A DNA stretch of 32,939 bases, from positions 1 to 32,939 of the forward strand of contig NSIF01000022.1 of NCBI GenBank assembly GCA_002737665.1. The letters run 5' to 3'. The position numbers and the translations under genes were made by a program. The notes beneath the pieces were generated by a model. It was given only the letters and a program-made list of their open reading frames with translations. It was not told the origin of the DNA and made no database searches. Shown here piece after piece: positions 15,220-30,605 of the stretch (its first letter is position 1; every line of letters begins with the position of its first letter). Source of the stretch: Flavobacteriales bacterium (GTDB lineage: Bacteria; Bacteroidota; Bacteroidia; Palsa-965).

Positions 15220-17361
15220 TTATTTTTCTTCTCTGATAATGTTTGCTGCTTCGCTAATGTATGGGTCTTTTTGTATACGTTCTAAAAAGTCAGTTTTACG
15301 TGCCATTTTTGAAGTATCGCCCTGGAGCATCATTTTATCAATGGAAAGCATTGAAATAGCAAACATACTAATGGGTTCTTCTAAGGGTTTGAATTGTTTA
15401 TTTTCTTCGCTCAATTCAGCTTGCGACTTCTTAAAATCTGGCAAATAAAGAGATTCCAATGTGGCCTCTTTTTCTCTCTTTAACTGTTTGGATTTTTTAG
15501 AAATAAGCGAAAAATAGGGGTCGGCTTCTACGCGCGAAGCACTGTTCTTAATAATTGAAGAATAGTCAGGTGCGTTCTTCCATCCTTTATAACTAGCAGA
15601 TGGAATACGATCCCACTCCATTGGGTAATCTAAATCTTTTTCACCTTGCTCATCAAAAGAAAAATAGCCAGGAAGTTGTACATCGGGCGACACTCCTTTC
15701 AACTGCGTTGAACCACCATTAACTCGATAGAACTTTTGAATCGTTACTTTAACTGAACCAAGTGGCTGCATTTCAGCTGCTGTATTTTGACTAGGGAAAT
15801 CATCGAGGTCATAAAAATTTTGAACAGACCCTTTCCCAAATGAAGAGGCAGAACTACCCACAATTACACCTCGCTTATAATCCTGAATTGCAGCAGCTAA
15901 AATTTCAGAAGCAGATGCGCTATTTTCGTTAATTAAAATTACCAATGGTCCACTGTAAACAACACTTCCTCCGTCTTTATCATCATAAACATAAACACCT
16001 TGAGAAGGGGATTTTACTTGCACAATTGGCCCACTAGGAATAAATAAACCTGCCATTTTTATTACTTCAAAAAGTGATCCACCTCCATTGTCTCTTAAAT
16101 CAAGAATAATTCCTTCAACATTTTCATTCATTAATTTTTCTAATTCCTTTTTTACGTCGTCAGCACAAGCGCGACCTGAATTTTTTTCTTTTGTAAAATC
16201 AGCATAAAAACCAGGAAGACGGATATACCCTATTTTGGCATTTTGATTAATGATAGCACTCTGGGCAAAAGTTTCATCAAGAATAACAACATCACGAATA
16301 ATTGGAATTACAAGCGTTGAATTATCAGGTTTTTGCACTGTAAGACGCACTTCGGTTCCTTTTTTTCCACGAATTAACTTAACAGCATCTTCCACCTTCA
16401 TACCCGCCATATCGACAGCTTCTTTATCTCCCTGCCCTGCTTTAATAATTAAATCTCCGGCCTTTAATTGTCCTTGCTTCCAACATGGGCTACCAGTAAC
16501 AATTGTAGTTACTTTAATGTACCCATCCTTTTCCTGCAATGTCGCACCTATACCCGTTAGCTGACCTGACATTGCAATATCAAAATCATCTTTCCCTGCA
16601 GGATTAAAAAATTCGGTATGCGGATCAAAAATCCCCGCGATAACATTTACATAGGAAACCATTCTATCAGTTCGATCTAACTTTTCAAGTCGAGTAAAAA
16701 TATCTTCCTGCGTTTTTCTAACCTTAGCACGGGCATCAACTTCAAGTTCTACATCACTCTTAATTATCAACTCCGGTTTTTTATCAGCAATGTTTTTATC
16801 TTGCTCTTTTTTCGCTTCATTCAACCGCACCATCACTTGATACTTCAAGTACTTCCTCCAAACATCCTTCATTTCCGTTTTATCTTTCGCATAACCCATT
16901 TTATCAGGATCAAGCTCTACACTTTCCTTAATCGTAAAATCAAAAGGCGTGGAAAATATTTCTGCGATATAACTTTTATTCTCAACAATCCGCTGGTTGA
17001 AAATAATTGTAGATCGATTAAAAAAATCAAAACTCAATACCTTTATTTCATCGTCAATTTGATTGTAATAGTTTTTCTTTAACTCATCCATGTCGGATTG
17101 TAAAAGAATTTTTTTTCCATAATCAGAACGTTTTAAATACGTATCATAAATTTTATGGGAAAAATTATCATCCACTTCCAATGGACGAAAATGCACGTTA
17201 TTTAGAATACTCATCATTATATCAAGCACAACTGCTTCTTTCTTGGCATCAGGATCGGAAATACCAGGTGCTGCAGCGCAACTGCTCCCAATGAAAGCAT
17301 AAGCAACTAAGCCCAGAATAGTTGGAATAGCAAAAATAGCAACTCGGATTTTAGACTTCAT
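15220..17361 (-). CDS. prc: C-terminal processing protease (tail-specific protease, S41)
   Basis: This 713-residue periplasmic serine protease degrades or trims proteins from the C terminus. The N terminus is a signal sequence with a hydrophobic core (about residues 6-24). A Cys at 28 in GSSCAA is not a good lipobox, because -3 is Gly. The Prc N-terminal domain is followed by a PDZ domain around 265-345 (GIGATLQEKDGYIKVTTIV). The S41 core is next, with LDLRDNGGGSLFEV and NENSASASEILAAA. Ser483 and Lys510 (FGKGSVQ) are the predicted catalytic dyad by alignment with E. coli Prc. The C-terminal helical tail, about 130 residues, matches the Prc-type extension and distinguishes it from shorter CtpA proteins. 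Confidence 0.93.
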   Translation of the reverse strand: MKSKIRVAIFAIPTILGLVAYAFIGSSCAAAPGISDPDAKKEAVVLDIMMSILNNVHFRPLEVDDNFSHKIYDTYLKRSDYGKKILLQSDMDELKKNYYNQIDDEIKVLSFDFFNRSTIIFNQRIVENKSYIAEIFSTPFDFTIKESVELDPDKMGYAKDKTEMKDVWRKYLKYQVMVRLNEAKKEQDKNIADKKPELIIKSDVELEVDARAKVRKTQEDIFTRLEKLDRTDRMVSYVNVIAGIFDPHTEFFNPAGKDDFDIAMSGQLTGIGATLQEKDGYIKVTTIVTGSPCWKQGQLKAGDLIIKAGQGDKEAVDMAGMKVEDAVKLIRGKKGTEVRLTVQKPDNSTLVIPIIRDVVILDETFAQSAIINQNAKIGYIRLPGFYADFTKEKNSGRACADDVKKELEKLMNENVEGIILDLRDNGGGSLFEVIKMAGLFIPSGPIVQVKSPSQGVYVYDDKDGGSVVYSGPLVILINENSASASEILAAAIQDYKRGVIVGSSASSFGKGSVQNFYDLDDFPSQNTAAEMQPLGSVKVTIQKFYRVNGGSTQLKGVSPDVQLPGYFSFDEQGEKDLDYPMEWDRIPSASYKGWKNAPDYSSIIKNSASRVEADPYFSLISKKSKQLKREKEATLESLYLPDFKKSQAELSEENKQFKPLEEPISMFAISMLSIDKMMLQGDTSKMARKTDFLERIQKDPYISEAANIIREEK

Positions 17362-17394: not shown

Positions 17395-17494
17395 GGCAAA
17401 AATCGTGCTATCTTTTATTAAATCTGTTAAGCGCATTAAACATTCTTGCTTAAAACAAGTAATTCACAAACTAAACGAATAAAAAGAGAAAAAA

Positions 17495-22298: not shown

Positions 22299-23006
22299 TT
22301 ATAGTTTTTCTTTCGCTTCTTCAGACTCTTTATAGGTATAAACAATCTCTAAAGGCGAATCATTTTTGGGAGGCAAGGGGAGTTCTTCAAAGGAAACATC
22401 TTCGGCATCATCGTCTTTCTCATCCTCCCAATATTTTTGTGCTTGTGGTCCTTCTTTTCGAAAAACAAAGGCAAGCACAAGCCCTGTTAATCCACCATAC
22501 AAATGTGCTTCCCAAGAAACATGCGGATCAAAAGGAAATACTCCCCAAACCATACTGCCATAGAGGAAAACAATAAGCAACGAAATAACTGCAAGCTGGC
22601 TATGTTTCCTTATTATTCCACTGAAAAATAAAAACGAAGCCATTCCATAAACCAAACCGCTTGCACCAAGATGGAATGCTGGGCGAGCGAATAACCAAAG
22701 CAGAACTCCATTCAATATATAAATAACCCAAAAAACTTTTCCTGAAATTTCTTTGTAAGAATTAAATAATAAATAACCCAAAACAAGTAATGGGAGTGAA
22801 TTGCCCAATAAATGTGCCCAGCCAGCATGCAAAAGGGGCCCAGTAATTATACCAACAATCCCATCAATTTTTCCTGGGAATAATGAATAATGTGACCAAT
22901 CGGTTTGCAGGAATCCTTGACAAAGCTGAACCACCCAAATAAGCGCCACGAAAGTGAAAGGAAATAATTCCTTTAGTAAAATTGAATGTTTACTAATTTT
23001 AATCAC
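22299..23006 (-). CDS. Rhomboid-family intramembrane serine protease
   Basis: This 235-residue membrane protein has about six helices. The catalytic Ser lies in GASG (residues 114-117, Ser116) and the catalytic His in SWEAHLYGGLTG (His168). HAGWAHLLGNSLPLL supplies the HxxxN oxyanion elements (His65, Asn69). The cytoplasmic C-terminal tail after about residue 185 is strongly acidic (EDEKDDDAEDVSFEE), longer than in minimal rhomboids, and of unknown use. The start is GTG, with no better downstream codon before helix 1. The gene is divergent from the TonB-dependent receptor. The substrate is unknown. Confidence 0.92.
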   Translation of the reverse strand: MIKISKHSILLKELFPFTFVALIWVVQLCQGFLQTDWSHYSLFPGKIDGIVGIITGPLLHAGWAHLLGNSLPLLVLGYLLFNSYKEISGKVFWVIYILNGVLLWLFARPAFHLGASGLVYGMASFLFFSGIIRKHSQLAVISLLIVFLYGSMVWGVFPFDPHVSWEAHLYGGLTGLVLAFVFRKEGPQAQKYWEDEKDDDAEDVSFEELPLPPKNDSPLEIVYTYKESEEAKEKL

Positions 23007-23017
23007 GTATAAAGATA

Positions 23018-23033
23018 GTCAAGAGCCGTGCCA
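23018..23033 (-). promoter_or_regulatory. Sigma-54-like element upstream of the rhomboid gene
   Basis: The minus strand reads TGGCACGGCTCTTGAC. TGGCACG matches the -24 box perfectly, and TTGA replaces the -12 TTGC at exact spacing (10 bases between GG and GA). The predicted start site, near 23008, is only about 2 bases from the GTG codon, and no enhancer-like repeats are seen. Chance occurrence is quite possible. Confidence 0.25.
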
Positions 23034-23125
23034 TTAGCATAAAAGAAGACGGAATGGCAGAAAGAATTTTATACTTACTTTTATTCCAAATTCATGATGC
23101 TATCATTGCAAATAAAAAAATAACG

Positions 23126-25936: not shown

Positions 25937-26683
25937 TTAAAGCATTCCTCGCTTCTTACGAATATTATCATAAGCTTCCTGTACCATCTGGAATTTCTCC
26001 TTCGCAATTTTCTGAGCATTTTCACCAAGGTCAATTACTTTATCAGGATGATACTTCACAGCCATTTTACGAAATGCTTTTTTTACCTCAGCATCAGTAG
26101 AAGTTTCGGCAACTTCTAAAATTTTATAATCGCTTTGGGTATCGCGCCAATACATTGCCCTTACAGATTCGAAATCGGTTCGGTCGATATTTAAATAATT
26201 GGCTATTTCACCTATGATTTTTGCTTCTTTCTGATCAACGTGACCATCTGACTTGGAAATACCAAATAGATAATGCAACAACTGAATTCGCTGCGCAACA
26301 GGCATGTATTGTCGAATTTGCACACACACATCTTGTAAGGGAATATCTTTCGCGAGCAAGTCGCGCAATACAGGCAATAATTTTTTTGTCTGTTCGGCTC
26401 CAAATTGTGATACTAAAAAGTTTTTGACAAAATCTAATTCTGCTTTCACCACTTTTCCATCACTCTTCAAAACAGCAGCCGTTAGTACCAATAGACTGAT
26501 CGCAAAATCACCTTGCGCAGTACTAGAATTATAACGTAAACCTGATGCATCGCCGCTACTAGATGAACTAGAAGTTGTGGCATTATCAACTACTGAACCT
26601 AATGCATAGCCAACTAATCCACCAATAGGCCCGCCAAGTACCCATCCCAATCCACCTCCAATCCATTTTGCAAAACTTCCCAT
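25937..26683 (-). CDS. TerB-like and DnaJ-domain protein (DjlA-like)
   Basis: This 248-residue co-chaperone-like protein begins with a Gly-rich, hydrophobic segment (residues 8-34, GGGLGWVLGGPIGGLVGYAL) that could enter or lie on a membrane. A Ser-rich linker follows. A TerB-like helical domain, about 60-180, is marked by two acidic repeats, KSDGKV and KSDGHVDQKE. The C-terminal J domain, about 185-248, has HPD at residues 212-214 in KYHPDKV, the motif that stimulates Hsp70 ATPase. This order matches E. coli DjlA. It lies 56 bases downstream of the TPM/LemA cluster on the same strand. No dnaK is in the window. Confidence 0.9.
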   Translation of the reverse strand: MGSFAKWIGGGLGWVLGGPIGGLVGYALGSVVDNATTSSSSSSGDASGLRYNSSTAQGDFAISLLVLTAAVLKSDGKVVKAELDFVKNFLVSQFGAEQTKKLLPVLRDLLAKDIPLQDVCVQIRQYMPVAQRIQLLHYLFGISKSDGHVDQKEAKIIGEIANYLNIDRTDFESVRAMYWRDTQSDYKILEVAETSTDAEVKKAFRKMAVKYHPDKVIDLGENAQKIAKEKFQMVQEAYDNIRKKRGML

Positions 26684-26739: not shown

Positions 26740-27510
26740 TTACCAACTTCCGCCACCGCCACCACCGCCACCGAAGCTACCTCCACCGAAGCCACCGAAA
26801 CCGCCGCCGCCACTACTTCCCCCGCCGCCATGGCCCCAACCGCCACCGCCAATAAAAAACCCAGTAGCCATTCCACTGCCAAATCCCCCCCCACTGCCAC
26901 CTTTAAAAACTCGGAAGAGAAATAGTATTAAAAGAAATGCAAGTAATAAATAAATTCCTTTTTGCTTATAAGAGGGTACATTATAACTCTTCGAATTAAT
27001 TTCACCCTTTGCAAGTTTCATAAGCACATCGGTCCCTGCATTTAATCCTTCATAAAAATTTCCATTTCTAAATGACGGAGCTATTTCTTTTTCGCAAATG
27101 TGCTTTGCAGTTATATCGGGAATGGCGCCTTCTAATCCATAACCAACGGCTATATAAGGTGGAATTCTGTGACCTTTACGACCAGTTGGGTTTATCAAAA
27201 CAATTACCCCGTTTTTAAAATCCTTTTGACCAACACCCCAAGTTCGTCCTAATTCAGTAGCAAATGAATTGGCATCATTATCCCCGAAATTATCTACAAT
27301 TACAACTACAATCTGATTGCTGGTTTCCTTAGAGAAATTTACCAATTTAGTTTCTAAAGCTTGTTCTTCACTTTTAGAAAGAAACTCAGGGAATTCTTTG
27401 GAAAAATTGTTTACTAAACGAGGTGGATTTTGTTGGGATGGAATTGTTCCACTTTGAGAAAAGGATGGAACTGAAAAAAAAATAAAAGCAATAAAACTTA
27501 GTAATTTCAT
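26740..27510 (-). CDS. TPM-domain protein with Gly-rich tail (YgcG-like)
   Basis: This 256-residue envelope protein has a signal peptide at residues 1-19 (MKLLSFIAFIFFSVPSFSQS). A TPM domain follows, about 35-165, with the signature SNQIVVVIVDNFGDND and GYGLEGAIPD. One membrane helix lies at about 185-202. The tail of about 50 residues is nearly all glycine and ends GGGGSW. The tail is encoded by GGC/GGT codons and makes a local GC-rich island at 26740-26900. TPM domains have been linked to photosystem repair, membrane protein quality control and, in some cases, phosphatase activity; the function here is unknown. Its ATG overlaps the stop of the preceding TPM gene in ATGA form. Confidence 0.88.
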   Translation of the reverse strand: MKLLSFIAFIFFSVPSFSQSGTIPSQQNPPRLVNNFSKEFPEFLSKSEEQALETKLVNFSKETSNQIVVVIVDNFGDNDANSFATELGRTWGVGQKDFKNGVIVLINPTGRKGHRIPPYIAVGYGLEGAIPDITAKHICEKEIAPSFRNGNFYEGLNAGTDVLMKLAKGEINSKSYNVPSYKQKGIYLLLAFLLILFLFRVFKGGSGGGFGSGMATGFFIGGGGWGHGGGGSSGGGGFGGFGGGSFGGGGGGGGSW

Positions 27511-27941
27511 TTGAAACTTATTTCATTCGAGAGTTCATTCGCATCGTCTCCCGCATAGGGAAAATGTTGTTTCAATTGAATTCCTGAAAGTGTAATTCCT
27601 TCAACTAAACCTTCTGTAAATGCTGATTTTCTAAAATTACCTTCCATTAAACTAGCTATTTCATTCCAAAAATCAGACGGCACCTTTTCATTTATGCCTT
27701 GATCGCCATAAATTGAAAATACACGAGATTCAATGGCGAGATAAAACAAAATTCCATTTCGCAGTTTTGTTTCGTGCATTTTCAATTTAGCAAAAACTTT
27801 TTCGGCCACCTTTATAACATCACCATCACATTTTTTTTCAATATGCACACGTATCTCCCCGGAAGTATTAAGCTCAGCTAAATAAATAGCTGTTTTAATT
27901 TGTTCCTTCTGTGCTGTTGAGAAAAAAATTTCTGCCGACAT
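27507..27941 (-). CDS. Short TPM-domain protein
   Basis: This 144-residue protein has a TPM fold but no signal peptide or membrane helix. It is distinct from its neighbour, which has both. It contains AEIFFSTAQKEQIKTAIYLA and TSGEIRVHIEKKC at the N terminus, then a mid-domain SIYGDQGINEKVPSDFW that matches the TPM core. It lies 2 bases downstream of lemA and overlaps the next TPM gene by 4 bases, so all three are translated from one transcript. LemA with one or two TPM proteins is a recurrent Bacteroidota arrangement; the joint role is not established. Confidence 0.85.
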   Translation of the reverse strand: MSAEIFFSTAQKEQIKTAIYLAELNTSGEIRVHIEKKCDGDVIKVAEKVFAKLKMHETKLRNGILFYLAIESRVFSIYGDQGINEKVPSDFWNEIASLMEGNFRKSAFTEGLVEGITLSGIQLKQHFPYAGDDANELSNEISFK

Positions 27942-27943
27942 TT

Positions 27944-28498
27944 TTAGAACTTTACTTCAGGTGCTTTTTCAGAACCGGCTGCTTCCTTAAATGGATCTTT
28001 ATGTGGGAATATAGATGCATTCAAGAACATGGAAGAGAAAAATCCTCGGATATGAGAATTGTAAACCATGATTGCTTCGTTGTAATCTTTACGAGAAACC
28101 GCAATTCGATTTTCTGTTCCCTCTAGCTGAGATTGTAAGTCCGCGAAATTAGCTGTTGACTTGATTTCTGGATATGCTTCAAAAGTAGCTTTAATCAACG
28201 TATTGATTTTAGCACCTGCAGCATCCAATTGATCAGGAGTTGTAGCATTTGAAATACCTGCGCGCGCATCAGTTACCTGAGTTAAAATTCCTTTCTCATT
28301 TGCAGCAGCACCTTTTACTGTTGCAACCAGCTGAGGAATTAAATCGGCACGACGTTGATAGTCGGCTCCAACATTTCCCCATTTTTCAGTTACTTTTTCT
28401 TGATACGTTACTGCATTGTTATACATACTTCTGTAGCCCATAAAAATGCTAAGTCCTAAGACGGCTACTACAATTAATGCGATTAATCCTTTACTCAT
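27944..28498 (-). CDS. LemA family protein
   Basis: This 184-residue membrane-anchored helical protein has one N-terminal transmembrane helix (about residues 4-22). The conserved LemA block DYQRRADLIPQLVATVKGAA spans about 46-65, followed by the long helical hairpin characteristic of the family. The C terminus ends in the periplasm-type sequence EKAPEVKF. The family's molecular function is unknown, and the name comes from a Listeria antigen. It is the first gene of the LemA-TPM-TPM run, 65 bases downstream of htpG on the same strand. Its own upstream region holds a near-match promoter box (TAAATTTA, 28545-28552). Confidence 0.92.
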   Translation of the reverse strand: MSKGLIALIVVAVLGLSIFMGYRSMYNNAVTYQEKVTEKWGNVGADYQRRADLIPQLVATVKGAAANEKGILTQVTDARAGISNATTPDQLDAAGAKINTLIKATFEAYPEIKSTANFADLQSQLEGTENRIAVSRKDYNEAIMVYNSHIRGFFSSMFLNASIFPHKDPFKEAAGSEKAPEVKF

Positions 28499-28563: not shown

Positions 28564-30465
28564 TTAAATTAATTCCACACTTCGTTTTATAAATTTAGTC
28601 AATTCTTCTCCTTTCAATAAGCCCTGTGCAAGCAATGCTAAATCGCAGGCCTGCTTTAATAATTCCTTTTGGGTTTGCTCATTTTTTTCAGAAATAACTT
28701 TACTAACTAATGGATGATTTGTATTGACAACAAGATTATGCATATCAGGCATGGTTCCAAACATATTCATTCCACCACCGCCACCAAGCGCACTCATATC
28801 CTTCATTCTGCGCATAAACTCGGGACGTGTAATCAACATAGGAGGATCAGTTGGACTCAAGGATTCTAAATTAACAGAAAATTTTTCATCTCCAATAACC
28901 GATTCCACCACCTTCTTCAATGCTTCTTGTTCCTTTTCAGAAAGCAAAGATGGCATTGGCTCCTCTTTTTTGATCAGCTTATCGATGGTATCAGAATCGA
29001 CACGAACAAATGAAACATTTTCAAGTTTTGGTTCTACAAAATTGATAAAATGTGCATCAATCATACTATCCATCACAAGCACATCGTAGCCACGTGACTT
29101 AGCCGTTTCGATAAAACTGTGCTGCTCCTCTACATTATTAGTATAAAGATGAATCACTTTTTGACTAGTATTGGTTTGAGAAGGTGCAATATGCGCTTTG
29201 TAATCGTCCATTGTAAAACACTTCCCATCGACATTTTTCAGTAAGGCAAACTTCTTTGCTTTATCATAAAATTTATCATCACTCAACATTCCATATTGAA
29301 CAAAAATTCGAATGTCTTCCCATTTACTTTCAAAATCAGGACGATCTTTTTTGAAAAGCTCTTCTAATTTATCAGCCACTTTTTTGGTGATGTGAGAAGA
29401 AATCTTTTTTACGTTACCATCACTTTGTAAATAAGAACGTGAAACATTAAGTGGAATATCTGGCGAATCGATTACACCACGAAGTAAAGTTAAAAAGTCA
29501 GGAACAATTTCTCCTACAGCATCAGTTACAAATACCTGATTGGAATAAAGCTGAATTTTATCTTTCTGTGTCTCAAAAGTTTTTTTGATTTTAGGAAAAA
29601 ATAAAATCCCCGTTAGATTAAAAGGATAATCTACGTTGAGGTGAATCCAAAACAAAGGACTCTCGAAATTCATCGGATACAATTCACGATAGAATTTTTG
29701 ATAATCATCATCCGTTAAATCTGCTGGCTTTTTCGTCCATGCAGGAGTTGGATTATTAATAATTGTGGGAACAGTTTCTTTTTCTGCTGGTTTGGTTTCC
29801 TTACCTTCTTCGTCTTTCTCGGCTGGAACAACATCAATTTCGTGTGTCCCGAAATGAATTGGTACAGGAAGAAACTTACAGTATTTTTCAAGAATTCCTT
29901 CGATGCGAGCATCTTCCAAAAATTCAAGAGAATCTTCTGCGATATGTAAAATAATATCAGTTCCTCTGTCTACTTTTTCAGCAGGAACAATATTGTAAGT
30001 CGGACTTCCATCACAAGTCCAGCTCACAGCAGTTGAATCGTCTTTGTAAGATTTGGTAACAATTTCTACTTTGGCAGCCACCATAAAGGCAGAATAAAAA
30101 CCCAAACCAAAATGTCCGATAATGCCATTTACTGCATCAGATTTATCTTTATACTTCTCCACAAATTCCTCAGCACCAGAAAATGCGACTTGTGCAATGT
30201 ATTTTTCAACTTCATCCTCGGTCATTCCAATTCCACGATCAGAAATAATAAGCGTCTTTGCTTCTTTATCAAGTTGGATAGAGATGAAAAGATTAGAAAA
30301 ATCGCCAGTCGTTTCACCCATAGCAGAAAGGGCTTGCAATTTTTTGGTTGCATCAACTGCATTAGAAACTAATTCTCGAACGAAAATTTCGTGGTCCGAA
30401 TAAAGAAACTTCTTAATAATTGGGAAAATATTCTCCGTTTGAACATTTATGGTACCTGTTGACAT
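28564..30465 (-). CDS. htpG: Molecular chaperone HtpG (bacterial Hsp90)
   Basis: This 633-residue dimeric ATP-driven chaperone has the GHKL ATPase motifs: ELVSNAVDATKKL near 31-43, SDRGIGMTEDE near 75-85 and GHFGLGFYSAFMVA near 117-130. A charged linker of about 20 residues (AEKDEEGKETKPAEKE) joins the N and middle domains. The middle domain carries RGVIDSPDIPLNVSRSYLQ. The C-terminal domain has a glycine/methionine-rich loop near 556-570 (GGGGGMNMFG) where E. coli HtpG exposes its client-binding helix. No MEEVD tail is present, as expected for bacteria. The 134-base upstream gap contains the sigma-54-like promoter and TGACA repeats described separately. Confidence 0.98.
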   Translation of the reverse strand: MSTGTINVQTENIFPIIKKFLYSDHEIFVRELVSNAVDATKKLQALSAMGETTGDFSNLFISIQLDKEAKTLIISDRGIGMTEDEVEKYIAQVAFSGAEEFVEKYKDKSDAVNGIIGHFGLGFYSAFMVAAKVEIVTKSYKDDSTAVSWTCDGSPTYNIVPAEKVDRGTDIILHIAEDSLEFLEDARIEGILEKYCKFLPVPIHFGTHEIDVVPAEKDEEGKETKPAEKETVPTIINNPTPAWTKKPADLTDDDYQKFYRELYPMNFESPLFWIHLNVDYPFNLTGILFFPKIKKTFETQKDKIQLYSNQVFVTDAVGEIVPDFLTLLRGVIDSPDIPLNVSRSYLQSDGNVKKISSHITKKVADKLEELFKKDRPDFESKWEDIRIFVQYGMLSDDKFYDKAKKFALLKNVDGKCFTMDDYKAHIAPSQTNTSQKVIHLYTNNVEEQHSFIETAKSRGYDVLVMDSMIDAHFINFVEPKLENVSFVRVDSDTIDKLIKKEEPMPSLLSEKEQEALKKVVESVIGDEKFSVNLESLSPTDPPMLITRPEFMRRMKDMSALGGGGGMNMFGTMPDMHNLVVNTNHPLVSKVISEKNEQTQKELLKQACDLALLAQGLLKGEELTKFIKRSVELI

Positions 30466-30520
30466 AATTAATCTGTTTAAATTTTGTTATTTATGAAAAA
30501 AAATCGCTTTCAATCTACGA

Positions 30521-30536
30521 TTCAAATGATGTGCCA
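30521..30536 (-). promoter_or_regulatory. Sigma-54-like -24/-12 promoter for htpG
   Basis: The minus strand reads TGGCACATCATTTGAA. TGGCAC is a full -24 match and TTGA stands for the -12 TTGC, with exactly 10 bases between GG and GA. The predicted start near 30511 gives a leader of about 46 bases. No TAnnTTTG box is present in this gap. The rpoN gene is not in the window, so use of sigma-54 is inferred. Confidence 0.55.
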
Positions 30537-30548
30537 ATGAAAATAAAG

Positions 30549-30605
30549 TGACAGGATGACAAAAACGAGGCGATTTGTCAGTACAAAAACAAGTGTTTGT
30601 CAGTA
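30549..30605 (-). promoter_or_regulatory. Four TGACA/TGTCA half-sites upstream of htpG (candidate enhancer)
   Basis: On the plus strand, TTTGTCAGTA occurs identically at 30574-30583 and 30596-30605, 22 bases apart (two helical turns). TGACAAA at 30557-30563 forms an inverted repeat with TTTGTCA at 30574-30580 across 10 bases. TGACA recurs at 30549-30553. The cluster begins 13 bases upstream of the -24 box. The distal repeat overlaps the dnaX stop codon. Confidence 0.6.

Follow-up and report, generated by a model that had tools for sequence, protein, structure and literature searches.

The htpG locus and its upstream region

The stretch of DNA analysed here (the window) is a contig of 32,939 nucleotides from a Flavobacteriales bacterium of the class Bacteroidia, and carries htpG, the gene for an Hsp90 protein of 633 amino acids, on its minus strand (28564..30465). 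Behind it on the same strand lie a lemA family gene (27944..28498), two genes for TPM-domain proteins (27507..27941 and 26740..27510) and a gene for a protein with TerB and DnaJ domains (25937..26683), all of which, judging from strand and spacing, are probable members of an htpG operon. Read along the minus strand, the sequence upstream of htpG consists of two copies of TACTGACAAA, the symmetric 13-mer TGTCATCCTGTCA, 12 bases, an element of the sigma-54 -24/-12 type (TGGCAC-ATCAT-TTG-A, TGGCACATCATTTGA; 30522..30536), and about 45 bases between a predicted transcription start and the ATG.

An earlier note on this DNA had described a minus-strand -24/-12 element with exact spacing, four TGACA/TGTCA half-sites, two identical 10-mers 22 bases apart and an inverted TGACAAA/TTTGTCA pair, and each of these was found again at the locus. 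The half-sites lie at 30602-30598 and 30580-30576 (TGACA) and at 30561-30557 and 30553-30549 (TGTCA), and the 10-mers, which are the two TACTGACAAA copies, at 30605-30596 and 30583-30574. The 13-mer (TGNCA-N3-TGNCA; 30549..30561, minus strand), hereafter the dyad, is the sole exact dyad in the window. Taking the base after TTG (30522) as -12, the geometry of the -24/-12 element predicts a start at about 30510, some 45 bases before the htpG ATG (30465), so that the dyad would span about -51 to -39 with its centre near -45; the note had likewise predicted a start just upstream of htpG, but placed it at 30511, 46 bases away. The first TACTGACAAA copy (30596..30605, minus strand) shares bases with the final codon and the stop of dnaX (open reading frame 32417-30600), and the second (30574..30583, minus strand) is a possible extra half-site.

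The GG expected at -25/-24 is present in the TGGCA box (30536-30532), and the distance between the two boxes, in the window as in the alignment described below, is the fixed spacing of sigma-54 promoters. At -13/-12, where such promoters have GC, the htpG element has the G followed by A. With A in place of C at -12, as in 56 of the 62 promoters compared below, the element would at most be a sigma-54 promoter of an atypical form; that it works like one can be said more firmly than that it is one.

Taken singly, these features are unremarkable in a window as AT-rich as this. The -24/-12 pattern alone, with at most one mismatch, has 8 matches in the window against 7.44 expected, and TACTGACAAA, with at most one mismatch, has 5 against 3.26, neither of which goes beyond chance; the exact dyad occurs once against 0.56 expected per shuffled window. 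A dyad followed by a -24/-12 element at the right spacing was seen in none of 300 window shuffles. The weight of the argument therefore rests on comparison with relatives. A scan of the whole window for CIRCE-like sites, based on what we take to be the CIRCE consensus, gave no match with three or fewer mismatches, in agreement with the earlier note, and HrcA/CIRCE control of htpG was set aside on this ground.

Conservation of the composite element before htpG

A search of 59 genomes, 45 of which had an HtpG match, yielded 30 htpG loci including the window's own, to which 80 further loci were added to give 110. After 13 loci in which a script did not locate the HtpG start had been dropped, 97 upstream regions were kept. 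The composite element, TGNCA-N3-TGNCA followed by TGG[CA]A-N6-TTG, was found in 62 of the 97 (0.0 in mononucleotide shuffles), bearing out the expectation that promoter and dyad should be conserved in relatives, and at least one half-site preceded a -24/-12 element in 87 of the 97 (0.01 in mononucleotide shuffles). Although spacers of 4 to 20 bases between dyad and -24 box were allowed, the 62 composites had 12 bases in 51 cases, 13 in eight, 11 in two and 14 in one.

We then removed near-duplicates, leaving 85 non-redundant upstream regions, and aligned those with an exact dyad, 63 in all, by the dyad only. This alignment revealed T, G and G at offsets 25-27, A at 29, and T, T and G at 36-38, with little else conserved apart from bases inside or adjoining the dyad; the two G residues of the -24 box reached frequencies of 0.83 and 0.92. 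In 56 of 62 dyad-bearing htpG promoters the -12 base is A (TTGA), one base away from the textbook TTGC, and this class of bacteria may use a different sigma-54 consensus. Many htpG loci from records titled Cyclobacteriaceae (in the set L010-L119) have TGGAA as their -24 box.

Within the genus, for which seven members were available, an exact composite precedes htpG in three genomes, the window's own (G000), G002 and G004. A fourth (G003) has the dyad and TGGCA with TTCGC in place of the TTG box, a fifth (G001) has a dyad with one mismatch, and the remaining two (G005 and G006; loci L014 and L015) have looser variants, as judged by eye. The closest relative of the window's locus (L011, HtpG 86% identical) has a dyad of its own with one mismatch, CGACATTCTGTCA, and is without both TACTGACAAA copies. 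Across 77 aligned promoters, TGNCA occurs 51-80 bases before the -24 box at 0.0087 per position against a background of 0.0051, which is not a clear enrichment. On these two grounds we ruled out the upstream TACTGACAAA repeats as a conserved enhancer; the TGACA cluster on which the earlier note had placed the activator is thus reduced to its proximal pair, the single dyad near -45, which is conserved. In the same 77 promoters a sigma-A type -7 box (TAnnTTTG) was found 10-30 bases downstream in no case, and a sigma-A promoter for htpG was discarded accordingly.

A predicted regulon of proteostasis genes across the class

To look beyond htpG, we ran a gene-blind pattern, TGNCANNNTGNCA-N11-13-TGGNA-N6-TTGA, on 149 genomes of the same class, with the pattern read backwards as a control. 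This gave 75 sites in 64 genomes against a single control site. Since 85 of the 149 genomes have no site, and the window's own genome has only the one at htpG, the strict pattern catches only part of the variation. The first downstream gene was read for 76 sites (the 75 and one from another search), the proteins being clustered and one representative per cluster named by Pfam. Genes of a proteostasis type follow 70 of the 76: htpG at 26, grpE at 14, thioredoxin at 10, hsp20 at seven, clpP, secA and clpB at two each, and dnaK, lon, groES, a dnaJ type gene, lemA, rhomboid and a neutral zinc metallopeptidase at one each, with thioredoxin, secA and lemA counted as proteostasis genes in a broad sense only. 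The other six comprise two sites before unnamed proteins (L126, L185), one with no near gene (L133), one at a contig end (L169) and two over which a reading frame lies open (L178, a secretion-tail protein; L189, a rhodanese). In the genome with the lemA site (L156), lemA has a dyad and -24/-12 element of its own.

A draw across the phylum, with the spacing fixed at 12 and the rows tallied by hand, gave 45 sites against none for the reversed pattern; these fall in 34 of 73 genomes of the same class and 2 of 223 genomes of other classes. Seven of the 45 were already among the 76 sites read, and of the other 38, all but two (L293 and L317), 36 in number, precede htpG, dnaK, grpE, trxA or clpB, as judged by eye from the first residues. 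L317 (in G180), with no recognisable chaperone gene, is one of the composites found in other classes; another (L318, in G390) lies before a dnaK gene, as read by eye. When the -12 box was dropped from the pattern, 10 genomes yielded 28 sites against 8 for the control, a real background, so that single loose matches mean little.

Two further cases show how the arrangement varies. In two members of the genus, groES is preceded by a -24/-12 element with no exact dyad; half-sites there stand 21 bases apart and 22 bases before the -24 box, a distance one turn further than the htpG spacing. A reduced genome of 0.49 Mb (G036), examined as a minimal system, retains both rpoN and the candidate activator described below. 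Base composition predicts 1.9 exact dyads there and one was found, about 30 bases upstream of grpE (L229, L280); no -24/-12 element is visible at that grpE dyad. Taken together, the sequence comparisons point to a class-wide proteostasis promoter of sigma-54 type with a fixed proximal dyad, a finding that extends well beyond the window. The wider stress regulon suggested in the earlier note is in this sense upheld at the level of the class, but in the window's own, incomplete genome htpG alone fits the strict pattern.

Within the window, a probable degenerate second element, TGCCATTCCGTCT, 13 bases and TGGCACGGCTCTTGAC (23018..23059, minus strand), lies before a gene for a rhomboid protease (22299-23006, minus strand), which is probably a second member of the regulon. 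In another genome (L150) the rhomboid gene is preceded by an exact composite whose spacer is 13 bases long. The start site predicted in the window falls at about the GTG, so the rhomboid mRNA may be leaderless. A -24/-12-like sequence, TAGCACGATTTTTGCC (17395-17410, minus strand), is also found before prc, a tail-specific protease gene (15220-17361), and was left out of the regulon because it has no dyad.

rpoN and a candidate activator beside groESL

The window's own genome, which is 66.6% complete, has, as the earlier note had called for, one rpoN gene with the RpoN box ARRTVAKYRE, and rpoN was found in 145 of the 149 genomes of the class. The AAA+ domain of enhancer-binding proteins (EBPs; PF00158) has eight matches in the genome, two of them strong. 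One is a receiver-AAA+ protein with no DNA-binding domain at the cut-off used. The other is a candidate for the orphan activator that the earlier note had expected alongside rpoN: a protein of 415 residues with an AAA+ domain (PF00158, 3.3e-68), a Fis-type helix-turn-helix (HTH; PF02954, 2.9e-12) and no receiver domain. Its AAA+ domain starts at residue 12, leaving no N-terminal regulatory domain, and between AAA+ domain and HTH runs a stretch of about 100 residues that is mostly poorly conserved. The GAFTGA loop has the variant form GSFTGA in the window's genome and GSFTSA in G036; in 24 aligned EBPs, GSFT and the last A are conserved at 95% or more and the second G at 70-95%. The gene stands in the order miaB-EBP-lptE-TPR-secG-groES-groEL, where TPR is a label that we presume to be correct.

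An EBP match at 1e-60 was found in all 149 genomes, and 146 have a best match of 1e-98 or better, clear of the next class listed, at 1.5e-75 and weaker. As to the others, G105 has a piece that matches residues 1-122 with 89% identity, which makes the absence probably a break in the assembled gene, and G060 and G068 have the weaker kind of match only; in six further genomes (G070, G103, G118, G131, G142 and G146) only the AAA+ part aligned. Because EBP and rpoN are both nearly universal in the class, their co-occurrence with the dyad does not discriminate and was set aside as uninformative.

A dyad at the operon of the candidate activator

The region upstream of miaB was fetched in 20 genomes from the EBP list, in three of which (G035, G041 and G054) an earlier locus had already shown a dyad at its edge. 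An exact dyad was found in 13 of the 20, followed in each by TAnnTTTG 11-20 bases later (0.01 in shuffles), and in 12 of the 13 the miaB motif lies 143-235 bases beyond this box; no miaB motif was located in the last (L274). Among the other seven regions, three have one-mismatch variants of the dyad before a similar box. In four members of the genus (three identified by pattern search and one by reading) the dyad is followed by 17 bases and a TAnnTTTG-like box, and so covers the place which we take to be that of the -33 box. The box in the window's own genome, TAAATTGC, fits the SM5 motif TAnnTTGY of Flavobacterium psychrophilum.

Its HTH, which sets it apart from the other strong EBP of the genome, the dyad at its own operon and the place of that operon next to groESL make the orphan AAA+ protein the likely activator and the best candidate for a protein that binds the dyad. 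Its place before a housekeeping-type -7 box suggests a PspF-like autorepression of the EBP operon. A fixed spacing at sigma-54 promoters together with a looser overlap at the housekeeping-type promoter of the EBP operon is what would be expected of a factor that activates the former and represses the latter.

Relation to known systems

Sigma-54 control of chaperone genes in this phylum, htpG among them, is not in itself new, given data from F. psychrophilum and a survey of 2025 (PMC9723704, PMC12316311). In F. psychrophilum, mapped 5' ends with a -24/-12 motif (SM4) are reported before groESL, lon, dnaK, grpE-dnaJ, htpG, clpB and a rhomboid gene, and a unit of a 'probable sigma-54-dependent transcriptional regulator' and lptE is placed under an SM5 (TAnnTTGY) promoter (PMC9723704). 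The same paper raises the possibility that co-expression clusters reflect distinct activators among three PF00158 proteins; in the parts of its text that deal with the SM4 promoters no activator is assigned and no dyad described (PMC9723704). The survey, in the parts that bear on this, found predicted sigma-54 promoters enriched at heat-shock COGs in Bacteroidota and Planctomycetota, with Hsp90 (COG0326) enriched in the class Bacteroidia, and, with reference to a genome paper on Blattabacterium, describes grpE and groES as sigma-54-dependent in named species; it is based on a scoring matrix and gives there neither an activator nor an activator site (PMC12316311). Many Bacteroidetes were described in 2011 as having RpoN activators without a DNA-binding domain (PMC3372290). 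A fixed promoter-proximal dyad and the assignment of an activator were not found in the open-licence literature, figures and supplements apart, which is weak evidence of absence.

PspF, of the phage-shock (psp) system, offers an architectural parallel. The orphan EBP likewise has no N-terminal regulatory domain, PspF AAA+ chains match it at 5.3e-58, and the negative autoregulation proposed here at a housekeeping promoter has, as we take it, its counterpart in PspF, which limits its own synthesis. AAA+ chains of the NtrC family match better (1.2e-71), so the likeness is one of architecture and not of closest kinship. Unlike PspF, the orphan EBP has the mostly poorly conserved stretch before its HTH, and its targets would be cytosolic chaperones and proteases read from a single site near -45. 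EBPs of the LuxO type use a Fis-type HTH to recognise TTGCA-N3-TGCAA, likewise a 13-base dyad around a 3-base centre; in the present case the HTH is a putative reader of the dyad, the half-site differs, and the orphan EBP has no receiver domain. HrcA/CIRCE and sigma-32 are known to control the same target genes in heat shock, but the window has no CIRCE and the promoter logic differs.

Bacteroidota are a major group in the gut, in soil and in the sea, and the way in which they sense and respond to protein damage is poorly defined; the analysis provides a concrete site, a predicted regulon and a candidate activator gene.

A proposed mechanism and its alternatives

On balance we think it likely that the htpG site is a sigma-54 heat-shock promoter opened by an EBP docked on the dyad, for which the orphan protein encoded beside groESL is the best candidate. 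RNA polymerase with RpoN would bind the -24/-12 element and stay closed until a dimer of this EBP, docked on TGNCA-N3-TGNCA near -45, remodels the closed complex. At the housekeeping-type promoter of its own operon, where the dyad lies over the -33 box, the EBP would probably bind as well and so limit its own synthesis. Its lack of a sensory domain makes it probable that another factor, perhaps a chaperone titrated by misfolded protein, keeps it inactive in trans. The comparisons support the interpretation offered in the earlier note, and from them we infer sigma-54 dependence and binding in the window's own organism. Weighing against this model are the A at -12, the lone site at -45, the grpE dyad of G036 without a -24/-12 element, the groES promoters without an exact dyad, the lack of a clear TGNCA enrichment further upstream, and the limited reach of the strict pattern (64 of 149 genomes, and htpG alone in the window's own).

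The main alternative, which we regard as unlikely, is that a different protein, a repressor or co-activator, occupies the dyad while the EBP opens sigma-54 promoters from solution, with heat relieving or changing dyad occupancy at the chaperone promoters and the EBP operon. Binding of the EBP to the dyad is a prediction, and EBP enhancers usually lie further from the promoter than a single site near -45. A repressor would suit the dyad at the EBP operon, which overlies a housekeeping-type promoter; activation from solution would be open to the other strong EBP, which lacks a DNA-binding domain; and G036 keeps the dyad before grpE where no -24/-12 element is seen. A repressor, however, needs no strict spacing, and the spacer is 12 in 51 of 62 htpG composites and 22, one turn more, at the two groES promoters; the adjoining groESL and the dyad that 13 of 20 genomes have upstream of the EBP operon also point to the EBP.

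That a primary or ECF sigma factor reads the htpG promoter, with TGGCA and TTTGA as its boxes, is far less probable still. It would be in keeping with the A that replaces C at -12 in 56 of 62 promoters, and TTTG resembles what we take to be the Bacteroidota -33 box; yet TAnnTTTG follows at 10-30 bases in none of the 77 promoters, GG and TTG hold the -24/-12 spacing, and the same genes in F. psychrophilum are given a -24/-12 motif at mapped 5' ends in the part of that study concerned with them (PMC9723704). Chance resemblance in an AT-rich intergenic region, with which the individual counts of -24/-12 matches and TACTGACAAA repeats in the window would agree, is scarcely credible against the class-wide conservation of the composite, its absence from 300 window shuffles, the blind genome search in which it marks proteostasis-type genes, and the alignment on the dyad alone.

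If activation by a dyad-bound EBP is correct, a sigma-54 activator would act from a fixed site beside the polymerase, which bears on how it engages the holoenzyme. More tentatively, and with slightly less than even confidence, we suggest that heat shock in Bacteroidia is run by a dedicated sigma-54 circuit, in which an ancient orphan EBP beside groESL, switched on by chaperone titration, would activate a regulon of chaperone and protease genes not through a distant enhancer but through one helically phased site close to the promoter, near -45, and would repress its own operon through that same site. Beside sigma-32 and HrcA, bacterial heat-shock control would then have a third design.

Additional dyad and half-site matches

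In the window's own genome, a half-site with a TGGCA-N6-TTG match was found near rpoN (contig C2:12851-12879, minus strand; L120). In a further genome (G053; L241), a gene that by eye resembles htpX, for a membrane protease, is preceded by a dyad and then a box of sigma-A type, TATATTTG, in a layout that resembles the dyad and housekeeping-type box at the EBP operon.
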